A stretch of DNA of 64,000 bases from Candidatus Tectimicrobiota bacterium (GTDB lineage Bacteria; JACPUC01): positions 35,923 through 99,922 of the forward strand of contig JACPUC010000015.1 in the NCBI GenBank assembly GCA_016192455.1. Direction: 5' to 3'. The notes below the pieces were generated by a model. The model ran no database searches, was not told the origin of the DNA, and saw only the letters and a program-made list of their open reading frames with translations. This document shows positions 53,323 to 58,865 of the stretch, one piece after another (position 1 is the stretch's first letter; every line of letters starts with the position of its first letter). The translations under genes and the position numbers were made by a program.

Positions 53323-53553
53323 CTAGGAGCTGCCGCCGAACGATCCGCCCATGCCGCCGCCCATCATACCCATGCCCATCTGTGCATATGCCTCAGGAAC
53401 AACCTTGAAGGAGCGGATGCTGGGGCGGTGGTAGGCCAGCAGGAATGCCGCCGCGCCGATGCCGAGGTGCTTGAAGAGATCGCGGCGTTCCACTCCCTCT
53501 TGGGGGGTATCGCCCTGCGCGTCACGCGCTTCACCCTTGGGGAACTGATCCAT
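53323..53553 (-). CDS. Putative precursor peptide 1 (RRD...YHRPSIR family)
   Basis: 76 aa; ATG at 53553 with AGGAGGT at ideal spacing. Acidic N terminus, then ERRDLFKHLGIGAAAFLLA (RR at 23-24), YHRPSIRSFKVVPEAYAQ (41-58) and a Gly/Met-rich tail MGMGMMGGGMGGSFGGSS. It aligns with the peptide at 55054-55284 over ~37 residues with 24 identities, while the tails differ, as expected for a leader plus variable core. YxxPxI resembles the YxxPxL leader motif of lasso-type RiPPs; the RR, hydrophobic run and AYAQ also resemble a short export signal with an AxA site. It is the last gene of the minus-strand locus, 180 bp after an HprK-like kinase. Confidence 0.7.
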   Translation of the reverse strand: MDQFPKGEARDAQGDTPQEGVERRDLFKHLGIGAAAFLLAYHRPSIRSFKVVPEAYAQMGMGMMGGGMGGSFGGSS

Positions 53554-53732
53554 CGTGAGAACCTCCTGTCCCCGCAACCACTGGGCCGCCATCCCTAAAG
53601 ATATTCGAGATATTCCAGCGCCGGCCTGCCTCCTGTGCACCTGTCACGTGGCGAGGTGGCCCCCCTTTGGTCACTGCAAGGAAGCAAGCTGCGTTTACCC
53701 CGGCAAGGGTGCGCGCGCCTCCTGGGATCGCT

Positions 53733-54656
53733 TCAGGGGACCGGCGCGCCACAGCTTGCAAGTGTCGCTCTGATGGAGCTCACCCCTTCTTCCAGCGACG
53801 CCATCGTGAGCTCATAGCCAGGCAGCGCGTGAGCCACATCGATGAGGGCGCAGAGGCGCTCCGTGGTCCGTTCCTCGAGGTTCATCCCCTCCTGAGTCAG
53901 CCGCTCGAGGACCTCGGCCGGATCAAGGGCGCGCAGGCGCGTTCGCTCCTCTGGCGCATACCTGGGGAAGAAAAGCAGCGACGGCTTCGCCCGCGCGCCA
54001 GGGCTCAGTTGGCGGTAGGAAGCGGGATCGACTACGTAGCGCCGCTTGCCGTCGAACTTGGTATGCGAGAAACATACCGCGGCCGCGGGCCAGAAAGCGC
54101 GCAGCGAGGCGAGAACGTCCTCCCGCAGCAGGAAGCTGCGCTGGAAGGGGATGAGGGAGAGGCGCGCCACGTCGAGAAAGATCAACTCTTCCGAGACCAG
54201 CACAAACCCCAGGGATGCCAAGCCGGCCAGGAGCGTTGATTTTCCCATCCTCGGCGGGCCGATGAGGAGGAGCGTTTGCCGCCCGTTCGTCATCGCTCCC
54301 CCATGGAGATGCACGCAATCGCCGCGCCTCGTGGCGGCGTGCGCCCCGAAGGATCGGTCCACCTTGTAGAGGGCTTCATCCAGATTCGGCTTCACGTGCA
54401 ATTGCGAGCCGGCATCGATGACCCGCCACTCGGCGCCATTCGAGGTGTGGTGCACGGAAAAAGTAGGGAGCTGGGCCCGGGCGCTCTCCGCCCGGTCGCC
54501 GTTGCGATCACCATTCTGGTCGCCATGATCGCTGACGCGCGCGTAGTAGAGCTGGGACAACCGCGCCAAGAACTCCGCGCTGTTGGTGCGCAACTCAACC
54601 TTGCACCCGGCGAGCCAGAAGATCGCGCAACTCTGCCCCTCTTGCCGTTTCATCAT
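53733..54656 (-). CDS. HprK-related kinase (peptide-locus kinase 1)
   Basis: 307 aa; ATG ATG at 54656, no SD visible. P-loop GPPRMGKST at 133-141, preceded by VHLHGGA (His118) and followed by LVSEELIFLD (155-162), the order of HPr kinase/phosphorylase catalytic cores. No PTS HPr gene is present and the N-terminal domain is not that of HprK. HprK-related kinases of this sort are known from cassettes with PqqD-like proteins and PF14907 nucleotidyltransferases, and in some lasso clusters they phosphorylate the peptide. A short Asp/Asn/Gly run (DHGDQNGDRNGDR, ~43-55) is unique to this copy. It is a paralogue of the kinase at 56546-57430. Confidence 0.78.
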   Translation of the reverse strand: MMKRQEGQSCAIFWLAGCKVELRTNSAEFLARLSQLYYARVSDHGDQNGDRNGDRAESARAQLPTFSVHHTSNGAEWRVIDAGSQLHVKPNLDEALYKVDRSFGAHAATRRGDCVHLHGGAMTNGRQTLLLIGPPRMGKSTLLAGLASLGFVLVSEELIFLDVARLSLIPFQRSFLLREDVLASLRAFWPAAAVCFSHTKFDGKRRYVVDPASYRQLSPGARAKPSLLFFPRYAPEERTRLRALDPAEVLERLTQEGMNLEERTTERLCALIDVAHALPGYELTMASLEEGVSSIRATLASCGAPVP

Positions 54657-55053
54657 CGAGGAGAACGCTTCTCAAGCAACAACCCCAATCGCCTTTCGAA
54701 GACTCCTACAGTAGTGCGAGATAAAGCAATCGTCCTCAGGAATAAGTAGAACAACTCCGCTTATCTATAGACCCGCCTTTGGTTGTCAAGGAAATCGATG
54801 CGCCCCATGAAGAGCGCCGCGCGTGCGGCCAGGTGGCGGGTGGTTGAACTCCCTGGAGCGACACCTACCCTCCGCGGAAGCAGACGGCTCGCCAGCCGGA
54901 CACACCACCTCCGCCGCGCCGCGGCACACTCCCCGAACCGCCGGCGCTACGTCACCCCTCCCCTCGCTTGGCAGCTTCTGTCTGGCCAGAGGGCCGAAGC
55001 AGGCATGCCGAGGGGGCCTCGACGACGAGCCGTGGAGGCGCCGAGATGCTCCG
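54657..55053. other. Intergenic region with candidate promoter of kinase 1
   Basis: About 400 bp. Minus-strand TTGACA at 54789-54784 followed by TAGATA (16-bp spacer) or TATAGA (14-bp spacer) in an AT-rich patch ~110 bp before kinase 1. No gene seen in the rest. Confidence 0.45.
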
Positions 55054-55284
55054 TCAGAACCCCATGTGCATGTTCTGCTGGCCGTGTCCGAACGAGCTCT
55101 TGCCGGGGTGATCCTGCGCCATGGCCCCCGGCGCGACCCTGAAAGTACGGATCGACGGTGGATGATAGACGAGGAGGAACGCCCCCGCGCCGGCGCCGAT
55201 TGCTTTGAGGAGGTCGCGGCGCCCCAGTCCGGAGGCAGGTTTCTCCTCTCCCTGACTTTCTGTCACACCCTCGTACGGTTCCAT
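55054..55284 (-). CDS. Putative precursor peptide 2 (RRD...YHPPSIR family)
   Basis: 76 aa, exactly the length of peptide 1; ATG at 55284 with GCGAGGG before it. Acidic N terminus (MEPYEGVTESQGEEKP), GRRDLLKAIGAGAGAFLLV (RR 22-23), YHPPSIRTFRVAPGAMAQ (40-57) and tail DHPGKSSFGHGQQNMHMGF, rich in Gly, His, Ser and Gln. The tail shares only SFG with that of peptide 1. It begins 33 bp after the methyltransferase-RRE gene on the same strand, so it is very likely in the same operon as its modifying enzymes. Confidence 0.7.
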   Translation of the reverse strand: MEPYEGVTESQGEEKPASGLGRRDLLKAIGAGAGAFLLVYHPPSIRTFRVAPGAMAQDHPGKSSFGHGQQNMHMGF

Positions 55285-55317
55285 TGTTTTTCCCTCGCCT
55301 GACCGCGGCGGCGGCCC

Positions 55318-56553
55318 TTAGCGGGATGCCGCGTCGCTGGTCGTTGTGGGAGTGCCGCTTCGACTCGCGGTAGGGTGGTCCCCCCCCCCGCTCCTGCCGG
55401 CAACGTCGACACGGTGGCGCAGGGTCTCCGCGAGGAGCACCCGCGCGTAGGCCTCGTCACGAACGATGTCGCCGAAACTCGCCCGCAACTCTTCGATGAT
55501 GGCCTGCGCCGCGAGACCGCGGCGACAGCCGTCAAGAACCGCCGCGTCGATCCGACCGCGCTCGTTCAGCAGCGGCCGCCAGTCATCCCCCTGCCGTCCC
55601 AGCGACTCCTCCGTGCAGAGGATTGATGCGAACGAGTCATGGTTGCGGACCGCTACCACCGTTGGAGACGCCGCCCCGTCCGAGGATCGAAGCTGCCGCA
55701 CCCTCCACTTCCAGATTATGTCGATCCAGGGAAAAGTTGCAAGCTCGACATGCAAACGATCTCCCGCCGCCGCGGCGAGGGGTGGGGAGATCGGAAAGAA
55801 GGCTTGCTGCCATGCGGTCGCCGTGAACTGCGGGTGGTTCGAGAGGACAAGGCCCTCAAGGAGGCGCAAATCGAACCACCCCAGCAGACCATGCACCTCG
55901 GCGGCGCGCGGCACCTCGAAGCTCAGGCTGGCGGAGAAGTGCCCCGTGGTCGCCTCGCGCAGGCGCAGGCGATGAACCTCCCCCGGCGTCGCCACCAGCT
56001 CGGCGGCGGAAAATGCCCGGTAGATCGGCTTGCCGTAGATGGTGGCGAGCAGCGGCTGCGGCTCGATTCCCAGCTTGCTCACCAGCCGCACGGGGCGCTC
56101 AAGCTCGGCGTAGAACTCCGGGGTGCTGACCGGCGCCATGAAGAGCACCACCTCCTCGGGGAGGAACTTCCCCGTCGGCTTCAGAAGCCGCTCCCGGCAG
56201 CCGAGGATGACCTCGTCAACGGAGGCGTGCAGAAAAAAGGGGTCGAAGTGCTCCGTCACCAGGAGATCGACCGGCTCCGGCAGGCGCACCGAGCGCGCAT
56301 CCTCCTGCACGAAGGTGATGCGCTCCGCCCAGCCATTGGCCCGCGCCAGCTCGCGGGCCTTGCCGATCACGTCGTGCGGCTCGATGGCATAGACGCGCTC
56401 GGCGCCCGCAGCGCAGGCGAAGAAGGCGAACGTCCCCAGCCCCGTGCCGATCTCGGCGACGGTCTGGCCGCGCAAGTCGAGACGCTGGAAGGCCTCGCGG
56501 AAAGCGCCCAGCCGGCGCTCGTCCTGCCACATGCGCAAATAGTACTCAAGCAT
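55318..56553 (-). CDS. PRMT-like methyltransferase with C-terminal PqqD/RRE-like domain
   Basis: 411 aa; ATG 56553 overlapping the end of kinase 2. SAM-binding VAEIGTGLGTFAFFACAAG (32-50), acidic AIEPHD (56-61), double-Glu-like loop LVTEHFDPFFLHAS (98-111), then a beta-barrel with GWFDLRLLEGLVLS and TATAWQQAFFPI (THW-loop position), the plan of protein arginine methyltransferases. Residues ~325-382 (RPLLNERGRIDAAVLDGCRR, AIIEELRASFGDIV) follow the PqqD/RiPP-recognition pattern of short strands followed by three helices. Such a domain would grip a peptide leader, letting the enzyme methylate the peptide. Domain calls are by eye. A Ser/Thr/Gly tail ends the protein. Confidence 0.7.
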   Translation of the reverse strand: MLEYYLRMWQDERRLGAFREAFQRLDLRGQTVAEIGTGLGTFAFFACAAGAERVYAIEPHDVIGKARELARANGWAERITFVQEDARSVRLPEPVDLLVTEHFDPFFLHASVDEVILGCRERLLKPTGKFLPEEVVLFMAPVSTPEFYAELERPVRLVSKLGIEPQPLLATIYGKPIYRAFSAAELVATPGEVHRLRLREATTGHFSASLSFEVPRAAEVHGLLGWFDLRLLEGLVLSNHPQFTATAWQQAFFPISPPLAAAAGDRLHVELATFPWIDIIWKWRVRQLRSSDGAASPTVVAVRNHDSFASILCTEESLGRQGDDWRPLLNERGRIDAAVLDGCRRGLAAQAIIEELRASFGDIVRDEAYARVLLAETLRHRVDVAGRSGGGDHPTASRSGTPTTTSDAASR

Positions 56554-57430
56554 GGAGCACGCTCTCCACGCATGCCACGGCGTCTCGCAGGGATGAGGCC
56601 GTGATCTCGTACGCGGGCGCCGACTCCGCCAGGCGCGCCAGCGCCGAGACCCCCGCGAAGCCGTGTCCCGCAAGGTTGAGCGTCTGGCTCAGGAGACGTC
56701 CAAAAACCTCCTCGAGCGGCAGCAGCTCAATCCGTCTGGCGCTCTCCGCACGGTAGGCGGGGAAGATGAGGAGGTAGGGCGCGGCGACTTCCCGTGTGGG
56801 CGCCTGCTGGAACGACCCAGGAGCCGGAAGGTAGCGGCGCGTGCCGTCATCCTTCGTGTAGGCGTAACTGAGCGTCGCCGCCGGCCACACCGCGCGCACC
56901 TCCTTGAGCGCGGCCTCCCTGATGAAGATGCCGCGTCGGAAGGGGATCACCGCGAGCCGTTCGGGGTGCAGGAAGAGCAGCTCGTCGGCCACATACTCGA
57001 AGCCGCGCCCCAGCAAGCCGGCGAGCAGCGTCGTCTTGCCGGCGCGGGGGCCTCCCAGGACGAGGATGGTGCGTCGCCCCCCGCGGCTCACCCCCCCTCC
57101 GTGGAGCTGCAACAGGTCTGGACGCGCCTCCATGGCGTACGTGCCGAAGGCAAGGTCCACCTCGTAGAGGGCTTCTTCCAGCGTCTCGGTCTGGAGACGC
57201 TGCAACTTCTGGTCCACGATGCGCCAGCGCTCACCCTTGGCGCACGCCGCTTCCGTAAGGCGCATCACCTCAATCATTGGACAATCGCATGGCTCAGGTG
57301 GTTCTCGCTCGTACTCCCCATAGAGCTGAGAGAGCCGCGCGACAAAAGATGGGCTGTTCGTCCTGAGCGCAATTTGCCGATCCGCAACCCGGAAGATCGT
57401 CATAGATGCAATCCCGTCACGCCTGACCAT
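56546..57430 (-). CDS. HprK-related kinase (peptide-locus kinase 2)
   Basis: 294 aa from ATG 57430, chosen because it aligns in length with the paralogue (MxxRxxxxS then ten residues to the shared [A/T]IF). ATG 57403 is an alternative. Shared LRTNSxxFxARLSQLY near the N terminus; QLHGGGV (His110), P-loop GGPRAGKTT (126-134), YVADELLFLH (146-155). Likely a nucleotide-dependent kinase or NTPase acting on peptide or carrier. Overlaps the methyltransferase start by 8 bp, so the two are translationally coupled. Confidence 0.78.
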   Translation of the reverse strand: MVRRDGIASMTIFRVADRQIALRTNSPSFVARLSQLYGEYEREPPEPCDCPMIEVMRLTEAACAKGERWRIVDQKLQRLQTETLEEALYEVDLAFGTYAMEARPDLLQLHGGGVSRGGRRTILVLGGPRAGKTTLLAGLLGRGFEYVADELLFLHPERLAVIPFRRGIFIREAALKEVRAVWPAATLSYAYTKDDGTRRYLPAPGSFQQAPTREVAAPYLLIFPAYRAESARRIELLPLEEVFGRLLSQTLNLAGHGFAGVSALARLAESAPAYEITASSLRDAVACVESVLHA

Positions 57431-57698
57431 GCTCCCGGGTCCATGCGCCGCGACCCCCTGCCGGCCAAGTTCATGGCGGACTGGTAAGGCCACGTGGGGT
57501 CCTCACGTTCACTACATCGTACTCTCCTGTCACAACTCAATATATGGCCAATCATTCTGAGTTGGGTATCCCCCGGCGGCAAGTGATGTGACAATCGGCC
57601 CCGCGCCCCGGCGGATCACGCCTGGTCGCCTTGGCTGGCCGCCGGCACTGGCTTACAGCGGCAGCGAAGCGACGCGAGATGGGGAACAGCAGGCAGGA
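57431..57698. other. AT-rich gap before kinase 2
   Basis: 268 bp. An inverted repeat CAACTCA...TGAGTTG (57533-57564) flanks a TATATT on the minus strand; a promoter for kinase 2, the methyltransferase and peptide 2 is plausible here, but no good -35 is seen. Confidence 0.35.
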
Positions 57699-58865
57699 CT
57701 ACGGACGTTTCCCTGGCTGGCCGGGAGCGGGCTTCGTCGCCTTCTTTCCCCCCGGTAGGAGCTCGTACAGCCGCGCCAGCAGGTACCCCCAGGGCTGGCG
57801 GCGCAGCTTCTCGAGGTTCTCCGGCGCGGGGTGGAGGAGGAGCCGCAGGGGCCATCCCCAGCGTTGCCAGCGACGCGAGGTGGAGAGGCAGACCTCCAGC
57901 CAGGGGCCAAGGATCTCGCTGCTCCGGCCGCGCAGGGACGGCAGCATGAGCCTCGCCGCCAGCCACTCCATGAGGCGCTCCTCGATGGCGCTGAGGTGCG
58001 GAAACCTGCTGAGATCCTGAAGGACGCCGTCTGGGATGGGCACCCCAAGGAGGCGCTGGGCGAGGCGAAGGTAGAGGCGACAGTACGCGCCCACCCGGTA
58101 GGCGTTGGCGCGCTGGACGAAGGCTGGCCAGTCAAGGCGGCAGCGCTCGAGGATGGCCGCGGCGTCACAGAGACTGTAGAGGTGTCCCACGCACGCATCC
58201 ATGTAGGTTGCATGCAGGGCGGCGTGCAGGAGGAGGTCTTCCGCGGCGAAGCGGCGGCCGGGCTGCGCCGCGATGAGGCAGGGCGAGGCGCGCTCCCACA
58301 CCTCCCCGCTCCTGATGGCATGTCCGGGCGGGGGGCTGACGAAGGCCAGGTGCACCTCCACCGGGCTGCGCCGCTGCGGGTGCACAAAGCCGGGAAGCTG
58401 GTGCGGGGTGGTGTGAGGGCGCCGGCGCAGGGGGATGTCGGTCTTCATGACGTAGCCGAGGCTCTTCAGCAGCTCGGTTGTTCTTGCCGCATCCGGGGGG
58501 GCGATGAGGAGGTCGATGTCCTCCATGCAGCGCGTGCCGATGTCCTCATAGACGCTTTCCAGGAGGGCGGCTCCCTTCAAGACGACGACCGGGATGCGGT
58601 GCGCGGCGAGCGTCGCGAGGAGCCCCCCCAGCTCATGGAGGAGCGCGACATTGGCGCCGAGGGTGCTATAGTAGAGCGCCTCGATCTCCCGCAGGTGCTG
58701 CGGAAGAATGCGCACCGAGGGATGCGCGGCGAGGCGGCGATAGAGGAGCGGCGCAACGCGCAACGACGCCGCCAGCTTGACGACCTCCGCCGTGATCGAA
58801 AGCCGGAGGCCGGGCGGCAGCTCCCGTCGGAGAGCCTGGAGGAGGCGCCGCCTTGCCTGCTTCAT
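57699..58865 (-). CDS. Nucleotidyltransferase (PF14907-like)
   Basis: 388 aa; ATG 58865 after AGGAGGAG; the frame is open upstream without family character. Conserved core IPVVVLKGAALLESVYEDIG with Lys97-Gly98, then RCMEDIDLLIAP where Asp116 and Asp118 are the metal-binding pair of the polymerase-beta superfamily. The later part (AEDLLLHAALHATYMDACVG, LYSLCDAAAIL) is the helical region of the family, which occurs in lasso and other peptide clusters and in HprK-related cassettes. Substrate unknown; it could transfer a nucleotide to a peptide or carrier. Confidence 0.85.
   Translation of the reverse strand: MKQARRRLLQALRRELPPGLRLSITAEVVKLAASLRVAPLLYRRLAAHPSVRILPQHLREIEALYYSTLGANVALLHELGGLLATLAAHRIPVVVLKGAALLESVYEDIGTRCMEDIDLLIAPPDAARTTELLKSLGYVMKTDIPLRRRPHTTPHQLPGFVHPQRRSPVEVHLAFVSPPPGHAIRSGEVWERASPCLIAAQPGRRFAAEDLLLHAALHATYMDACVGHLYSLCDAAAILERCRLDWPAFVQRANAYRVGAYCRLYLRLAQRLLGVPIPDGVLQDLSRFPHLSAIEERLMEWLAARLMLPSLRGRSSEILGPWLEVCLSTSRRWQRWGWPLRLLLHPAPENLEKLRRQPWGYLLARLYELLPGGKKATKPAPGQPGKRP

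Follow-up and report, generated by a model that had tools for sequence, protein, structure and literature searches.

Closest described systems

Lasso precursors are phosphorylated by HprK homologues (PMC10368454, PMC9266682), and PF14907-type nucleotidyltransferases of lasso clusters have been tied to hexose transfer onto phosphoserine (PMC9266682, PMC8498205), as for PsmN, an annotated nucleotidyltransferase that puts a hexose on phosphoserine (PMC9266682). These modified lasso peptides (paeninodin PadeK; pseudomycoidin PsmK/PsmN; BsfK/BsfN) share an HprK homologue, a nucleotidyltransferase and a YxxP-type motif (PMC9266682, PMC10368454, PMC12710340), YxxP being the lasso motif for the RRE (recognition element of ribosomally synthesized and post-translationally modified peptides, RiPPs) (PMC12710340), with a six-gene cassette found at positions 53323-58865 of a 64,000-nt stretch of DNA from a Candidatus Tectimicrobiota bacterium, the whole stretch being hereafter named the window. 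The cassette differs from them by having no cyclase or B2 protease, a leader resembling twin-arginine translocation (Tat) signals, no conserved C-terminal Ser, and a PRMT-like enzyme. It probably represents a RiPP-like maturation cassette in which the leader of the precursor also serves as a Tat-type export signal. In agreement with RiPPs, it encodes short peptides in which a conserved N-terminal leader precedes a variable tail, and modifying enzymes are genetically associated with them.

Two further systems deserve comparison. The HPr-rel-A system (TIGR04352 with the PqqD protein TIGR04353) also combines an HprK-like kinase with a PqqD-family chaperone, in the same superfamily, but the window kinases score far under the HprK_rel_A cut-off, only one of the PqqDs scanned in four relatives (that of L154) passes TIGR04353 (39.3 versus 35), and neither a Tat-like peptide nor a PRMT-like enzyme was found described for it. 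RiPP precursors with a Sec signal also exist, namely the copper-binding bufferins and oxazolins, in which a general export signal likewise replaces the typical leader (PMC12452194); these combine a Sec signal with MNIO enzymes and with cores that contain Cys, whereas the cassette has Tat-like signals, kinases, a methyltransferase and mostly no Cys.

Organization of the cassette

The six minus-strand genes proposed in a previous reading of the sequence alone (the sequence-only reading) are all present, in the following order from 58865 to 53323:

57699..58865, minus strand: PF14907-family nucleotidyltransferase, 388 aa (Pfam PF14907 160.5 bits; LKG, EDIDLL and ExH motifs)
56546..57403, minus strand: HprK-related kinase 1 (HprK1), 285 aa (TIGR04352 100.3 bits; motifs; AlphaFold2 (AF2) fold)
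55318..56553, minus strand: PRMT-like methyltransferase with PqqD-like three-helix C-terminus, 411 aa (PRMT6 E=1.5e-24; Foldseek)
55054..55284, minus strand: precursor peptide 1 (pep1), 76 aa, Tat-like leader, motif YHPPSIRT (TAT_signal 16.5 bits)
53733..54656, minus strand: HprK-related kinase 2 (HprK2), 307 aa, metal-binding pair E-E (TIGR04352 76.2 bits; catalytic motifs)
53323..53553, minus strand: precursor peptide 2 (pep2), 76 aa, Tat-like leader, motif YHRPSIRS (leader alignment; Shine-Dalgarno)

An 8-base overlap (ATGCTTGA) joins the stop of HprK1 to the methyltransferase start, and 33 bases separate the methyltransferase stop from the pep1 start; HprK1, methyltransferase and pep1 thus look like a single transcription unit. 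A strong Shine-Dalgarno sequence (aggagg) precedes pep2.

A Tat-like leader containing the YxxP motif

Alignment of both 76-aa peptides confirms one common block, RRDL[LF]K...FLLxYHxPSIRxFxVxPxAxAQ, followed by unrelated tails (DHPGKSSFGHGQQNMHMGF after AMAQ in pep1, and MGMGMMGGGMGGSFGGSS after AYAQ in pep2), as already noticed in the sequence-only reading, which nonetheless overlooked the Tat-like character of the block. Across 29 peptides the leader follows the pattern [RK]R x [FL] ..., 8-13 residues, and then [YF]xxPx[IVM]x[ST]. The full motif RRxF(L/I)K...[YF]xxPx[IV]x[ST] occurs in 28/29 leaders, the exception (L050) being devoid of the Ser/Thr, versus 0/16 in a small control of Tat-like N-termini from the same loci. 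Judged by these residues, the leader is Tat-like with a lasso-type YxxP inside. The Ser/Thr placed four residues past the Pro of YxxP is a new observation, and it may act as kinase site or as RRE contact. Family searches with pep1 and pep2 gave no match beyond a sub-threshold Tat signal, so that membership in a known unrelated family, a possibility considered from the outset, finds no support. TatC was detected in 23/23 carrier genomes tested, the same search being positive in 11/14 controls, in line with TatC being widespread.

Gly, Pro, Met, Ser and His abound in the tails, which vary by lineage, and 25 of the 29 cores are free of Cys. Phosphorylation at a conserved C-terminal Ser, known from paeninodin, was discarded, with just 4/29 peptides ending in Ser. 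As separate observations, Neomarinimicrobiota-type peptides (L148, L168, L169) display WWWWTGHHHHH-type cores with proline-rich ends and are encoded apart from their cassettes, and PPPG or PPG appears at or near the end of many peptides (L078, L093, L096, L098, L046, L035), possibly as a second conserved element that the window peptides do not have.

HprK-type kinases and PF14907 nucleotidyltransferase

Both kinases fall within the HprK-related group, as anticipated, though below the curated cut-off of TIGR04352 (100.3 bits for HprK1 and 76.2 for HprK2, versus 200), and are 40% identical to each other. HprK1 contains H101, the P-loop GGPRAGKT and the D140-E141 pair, that is, the lasso-kinase motif with D-E for D-D, and its AF2 model (pLDDT 91) displays the PEPCK/HprK fold. 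The features that define HprK/PEPCK kinases, this fold together with the His, the P-loop and the Asp-Asp/Glu pair, are therefore found in HprK1 by model and sequence, and in HprK2 by sequence only, with E-E at the pair. Considering its E-E pair and the presence of two kinases with two peptides, HprK2 may have a specialised role or a weakened activity. Membership of the nucleotidyltransferase in PF14907, as previously suggested, is clear (160.5 bits versus a gathering cut-off of 31.2), and its LKG, EDIDLL and ExH motifs are common to the cassette relatives. Searches for solved structures related by sequence to the nucleotidyltransferase or the kinases provided none meaningful.

Phosphorylation is likely here by analogy with the HprK and PsmN precedents and with BsfK, whose reaction is greatly accelerated by a discrete RRE protein (PMC10368454). 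Regarding the maturation system by methylation, phosphorylation and/or nucleotidylation that had been envisaged, its nucleotidylation component loses ground, since the precedent for PF14907 types of lasso clusters is hexose transfer onto phosphoserine (PMC9266682, PMC8498205); by the same analogy, the window nucleotidyltransferase may attach a sugar.

A PRMT fold with an altered active site

The methyltransferase is a true PRMT-family protein (PRMT6 match, E=1.5e-24), and its AF2 model (pLDDT 90) has PRMT6, CARM1 and PRMT3 as best folds (Foldseek 3.3e-27 for PRMT6), with which it shares the fold and the first active-site Glu. It differs from them by an added C-terminal three-helix unit and by the loss of the second Glu and of the THW His, both replaced by Ala (TEHFDPFFLHASV and TAW, versus SEWMGYGLLHESM and THW). 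In true PRMTs these two residues clamp the guanidinium. Thus, the description as PRMT-like holds for the fold but not for the complete arginine clamp, the double-Glu and THW loops of arginine methyltransferases being disrupted.

All 18 methyltransferases found with the peptide (15 beside it and 3 in genomes with the peptide elsewhere) group in a single clade (SH-aLRT 100), in a quick tree where several rows are of unusual composition and the window branch is long. In this clade the first Glu is retained, mostly as ED[FY], and the alignment shows neither the second Glu nor the His of THW at the corresponding positions. On the contrary, the methyltransferases linked to radical SAM genes (L045, L049, L051) keep both canonical residues and are placed elsewhere in the tree, and those linked to lasso genes exhibit a third pattern, ADQ/CDQ..F(E/D). 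Because the guanidinium-clamp residues are lost, the peptide-linked branch probably methylates something other than arginine, as far as can be read from its residues. Both window cores are free of Arg, in agreement with such a target, and arginine methylation of the core was discarded, 11/29 cores (both window ones included) having no Arg.

The fusion of this enzyme to an RRE, as proposed in the sequence-only reading, stands only in part. The last ~60 structured residues resemble just the alpha-helical half of PqqD (hhalign probability 95.6% versus 0.1% for the control), a complete RRE consisting of three beta strands followed by three helices, and a PF05402 match, weak, was obtained in only 2/32 relatives.

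Recurrence of the cassette in other genomes

Evidence was drawn from distant genomes because the window genome is the sole representative of its phylum in the genome set. Searching GTDB contigs with an alignment of the methyltransferase retrieved 80 loci. In ~30 of them the methyltransferase has HprK and/or PF14907 in its vicinity, often together with a discrete PqqD. The set formed by HprK-type kinase, PRMT-like methyltransferase, PF14907 nucleotidyltransferase and leader peptide, usually with a discrete PqqD, recurs in at least 7 phyla, with gene content kept while order and strand vary. Small peptides with the same leader adjoin the methyltransferase in Tectomicrobia, Methylomirabilota, Poribacteria, KSB1 and Gemmatimonadota. 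Peptides and enzymes are therefore conserved together in unrelated genomes, contrary to the scenario that would have undermined the sequence-only reading, and such recurrence rules out a single-genome fluke. The window genome itself carries a second locus (L035:9273-12816, contig C2) with a related Tat-like peptide, HprK, PF14907 and a full-length PqqD (PF05402, 64 bits), and no methyltransferase. Polysaccharide-export-type genes are shared by the L035 contig region and L027, L051 and L052.

A profile built from the peptide only was then run on three panels: 249 genomes from the phylum to which a Gemmatimonadota locus belongs, a diverse set of 386, and 18 from the phylum of G137, the genome with the locus nearest to the Tectomicrobia ones. 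HprK was found within 10 kb at 17/21 peptide loci, many of which had supplied the profile; the fair count comprises the 11 loci new to it, 7 of them with HprK within that distance (L153, L154, L155, L170, L171, L173, L174) and three of these (L153, L154, L171) also with a newly found peptide-type methyltransferase. The remaining four (L149, L168, L169, L172) are orphans, but a peptide-type methyltransferase is encoded elsewhere in each of their genomes. Conversely, the genomes of three cassettes without peptide (L047, L052, L054) carry it on another contig; that of the L047 genome (L147) sits by another HprK and a PqqD, and the L047 methyltransferase falls outside the peptide clade. In a panel of 145 genomes, the window genome being left aside, the peptide was present in 3/3 genomes with a peptide-type methyltransferase versus 1/141 others (Fisher 8e-6, to be taken as a rough guide, two of the three having helped to build the profile). 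Three genomes (G144, G358, G663) contain peptide and HprK without a peptide-type methyltransferase, indicating that the latter is accessory. The core is peptide plus HprK (with PqqD), the nucleotidyltransferase likewise being accessory.

These data also bear on a rather unlikely explanation, in which the peptides would be small proteins exported by Tat, with a structural or metal-binding role, and the enzymes would act elsewhere, for example on a surface polysaccharide made nearby. The Gly/Pro/Met/His-rich tails could indeed hold copper, and some cassettes (L035 in the window genome, L027, L052, L054) lie near polysaccharide genes. Nonetheless, peptide and peptide-specific methyltransferase clade co-track even when unlinked, a scan of five genes at each flank of the window cassette revealed no polysaccharide genes, and YxxPx[IV]x[ST] is unusual for a Tat signal yet contains a known RRE motif.

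Other loci of the wider methyltransferase family encode a lasso cyclase and protease, or else radical SAM enzymes. Two further explanations have very little probability each. According to one, the cassette belongs to a lasso pathway with cyclase and protease missing from the assembly or encoded elsewhere; lasso clusters are known to have the YxxP leader, HprK and the nucleotidyltransferase alike, and in other genomes relatives of the methyltransferase adjoin the asparagine-synthetase cyclase (AsnB) and B2. However, of the lasso hallmarks the YxxP leader is present and AsnB and B2 are missing: profiles built for this analysis detected neither in the 64-kb window, nor are they clustered at any peptide-linked locus (one AsnB-like match lies ~13 kb from the peptide in L046), and cores such as that of pep2 offer no Asp/Glu acceptor for the macrolactam.

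Equally improbable is a SynChlorMet-like radical-SAM cassette that lost its radical SAM enzymes here. The likeness resides in the HprK-like (ScmC) and PqqD-like (ScmD) parts, to which the kinases and PqqDs found here are weakly similar, and in the related methyltransferases of L045, L049 and L051, which accompany HprK and PqqD next to genes for radical SAM enzymes. These methyltransferases nevertheless occupy another part of the tree with a canonical active site, a separation that weakens this explanation, no radical SAM gene lies beside any peptide-linked cassette, and the radical SAM profile built for this analysis gave no match to such enzymes (ScmE/ScmF) in the window. The profile search of the window agrees with the earlier proposal of a system without lasso cyclase, protease or radical SAM enzyme.

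Proposed maturation and export route

The favoured explanation, a RiPP-like cassette with a leader that is also a Tat-type signal, builds on the genes, their co-inheritance, the leader motif, the folds of kinase and methyltransferase, the changed active site of the latter and the TatC of tested carriers, all computed here, from which we infer binding, chemistry, order of steps and export. An RRE-type protein would initially bind [YF]xxPx[IV]x[ST] in the leader and keep it off the Tat translocon, a role that would correspond to the discrete PqqD in most genomes and, here, to the PqqD-like tail of the methyltransferase or the L035 PqqD. The HprK-type kinase would then phosphorylate a Ser/Thr, the PF14907 enzyme would put a hexose or nucleotide on that phosphate, and the PRMT-like enzyme would methylate a non-arginine target (hydroxyl, Met, His, carboxylate or phosphate). 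Finally, the modified precursor would exit by Tat and be cleaved near AxA|Q.

Several observations weigh against this explanation. Against the TAT_signal profile, pep1 (16.5 bits) remains just under the cut-off of 16.7 and pep2 scores 13.3, and the variation of the tails is too great to name one common modified residue. The profile search of the window found no discrete PqqD, the methyltransferase model contains beyond the PRMT barrel only three helices (331-381) with no RRE beta wing, and the neighbour genes include no recurrent protease or transporter dedicated to the leader. As read from its sequence, HprK2 shows E-E where lasso kinases have D-D. Moreover, Ala exchanges in the YxxPxL of BsfA leave phosphorylation going (PMC10368454), so that the YxxP motif need not steer the kinase.

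Tat proofreading chaperones are known to mask the signals of cofactor enzymes, and masking of the leader by the RRE is proposed by analogy with them. A more ambitious reading, plausible but held with less than even confidence, is that of a new RiPP class in which the Tat signal is the leader, masked by RRE/PqqD while the peptide is phosphorylated, receives a sugar or nucleotide and is methylated by a clamp-less PRMT, export following once this is finished. Literature searches, in part with narrow queries, returned no description of this gene set, in keeping with the sequence-only reading, which knew of no class with it. The parts are individually known; the combination and the leader are new, and the cassette is widespread and undescribed as far as the searched literature shows.

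These results point to an undescribed route for peptide modification and export. If the favoured explanation is true, a Tat-type leader holding an RRE motif would be an arrangement already known for cofactor enzymes in Tat proofreading, a bacterial PRMT branch would have been rebuilt for another substrate, and, in many uncultured phyla, PF14907 and HprK-type enzymes would gain a defined substrate other than lasso peptides.

Genomic surroundings and related loci

The cassette has ordinary flanks, with an S15-type hydrolase and an ABM-domain protein on one side, and on the other Maf, a protein similar to serine acetyltransferases and a class-V aminotransferase that resembles cysteine desulfurases. 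Anti-phage defence was discarded, PADLOC giving only a methyltransferase-region match (mad2) for the methyltransferase and none for the kinases or the nucleotidyltransferase, and so was plasmid-borne spread, tblastn of the methyltransferase versus 72,556 plasmids giving no match.

Six loci of the wider methyltransferase family (L060, L080, L082, L083, L092, L094; the last two from Mesorhizobium) are clusters of lasso type, all with AsnB and most of them also with B2 and/or PqqD, that contain HprK and a PRMT-like enzyme, and the latter, with its ADQ/CDQ..F(E/D) pattern, is possibly an unreported lasso tailoring enzyme. L045, L049 and L051, which combine radical SAM, PqqD, HprK, a clamp-intact PRMT-like enzyme and PF14907, constitute another candidate peptide-modification cassette.

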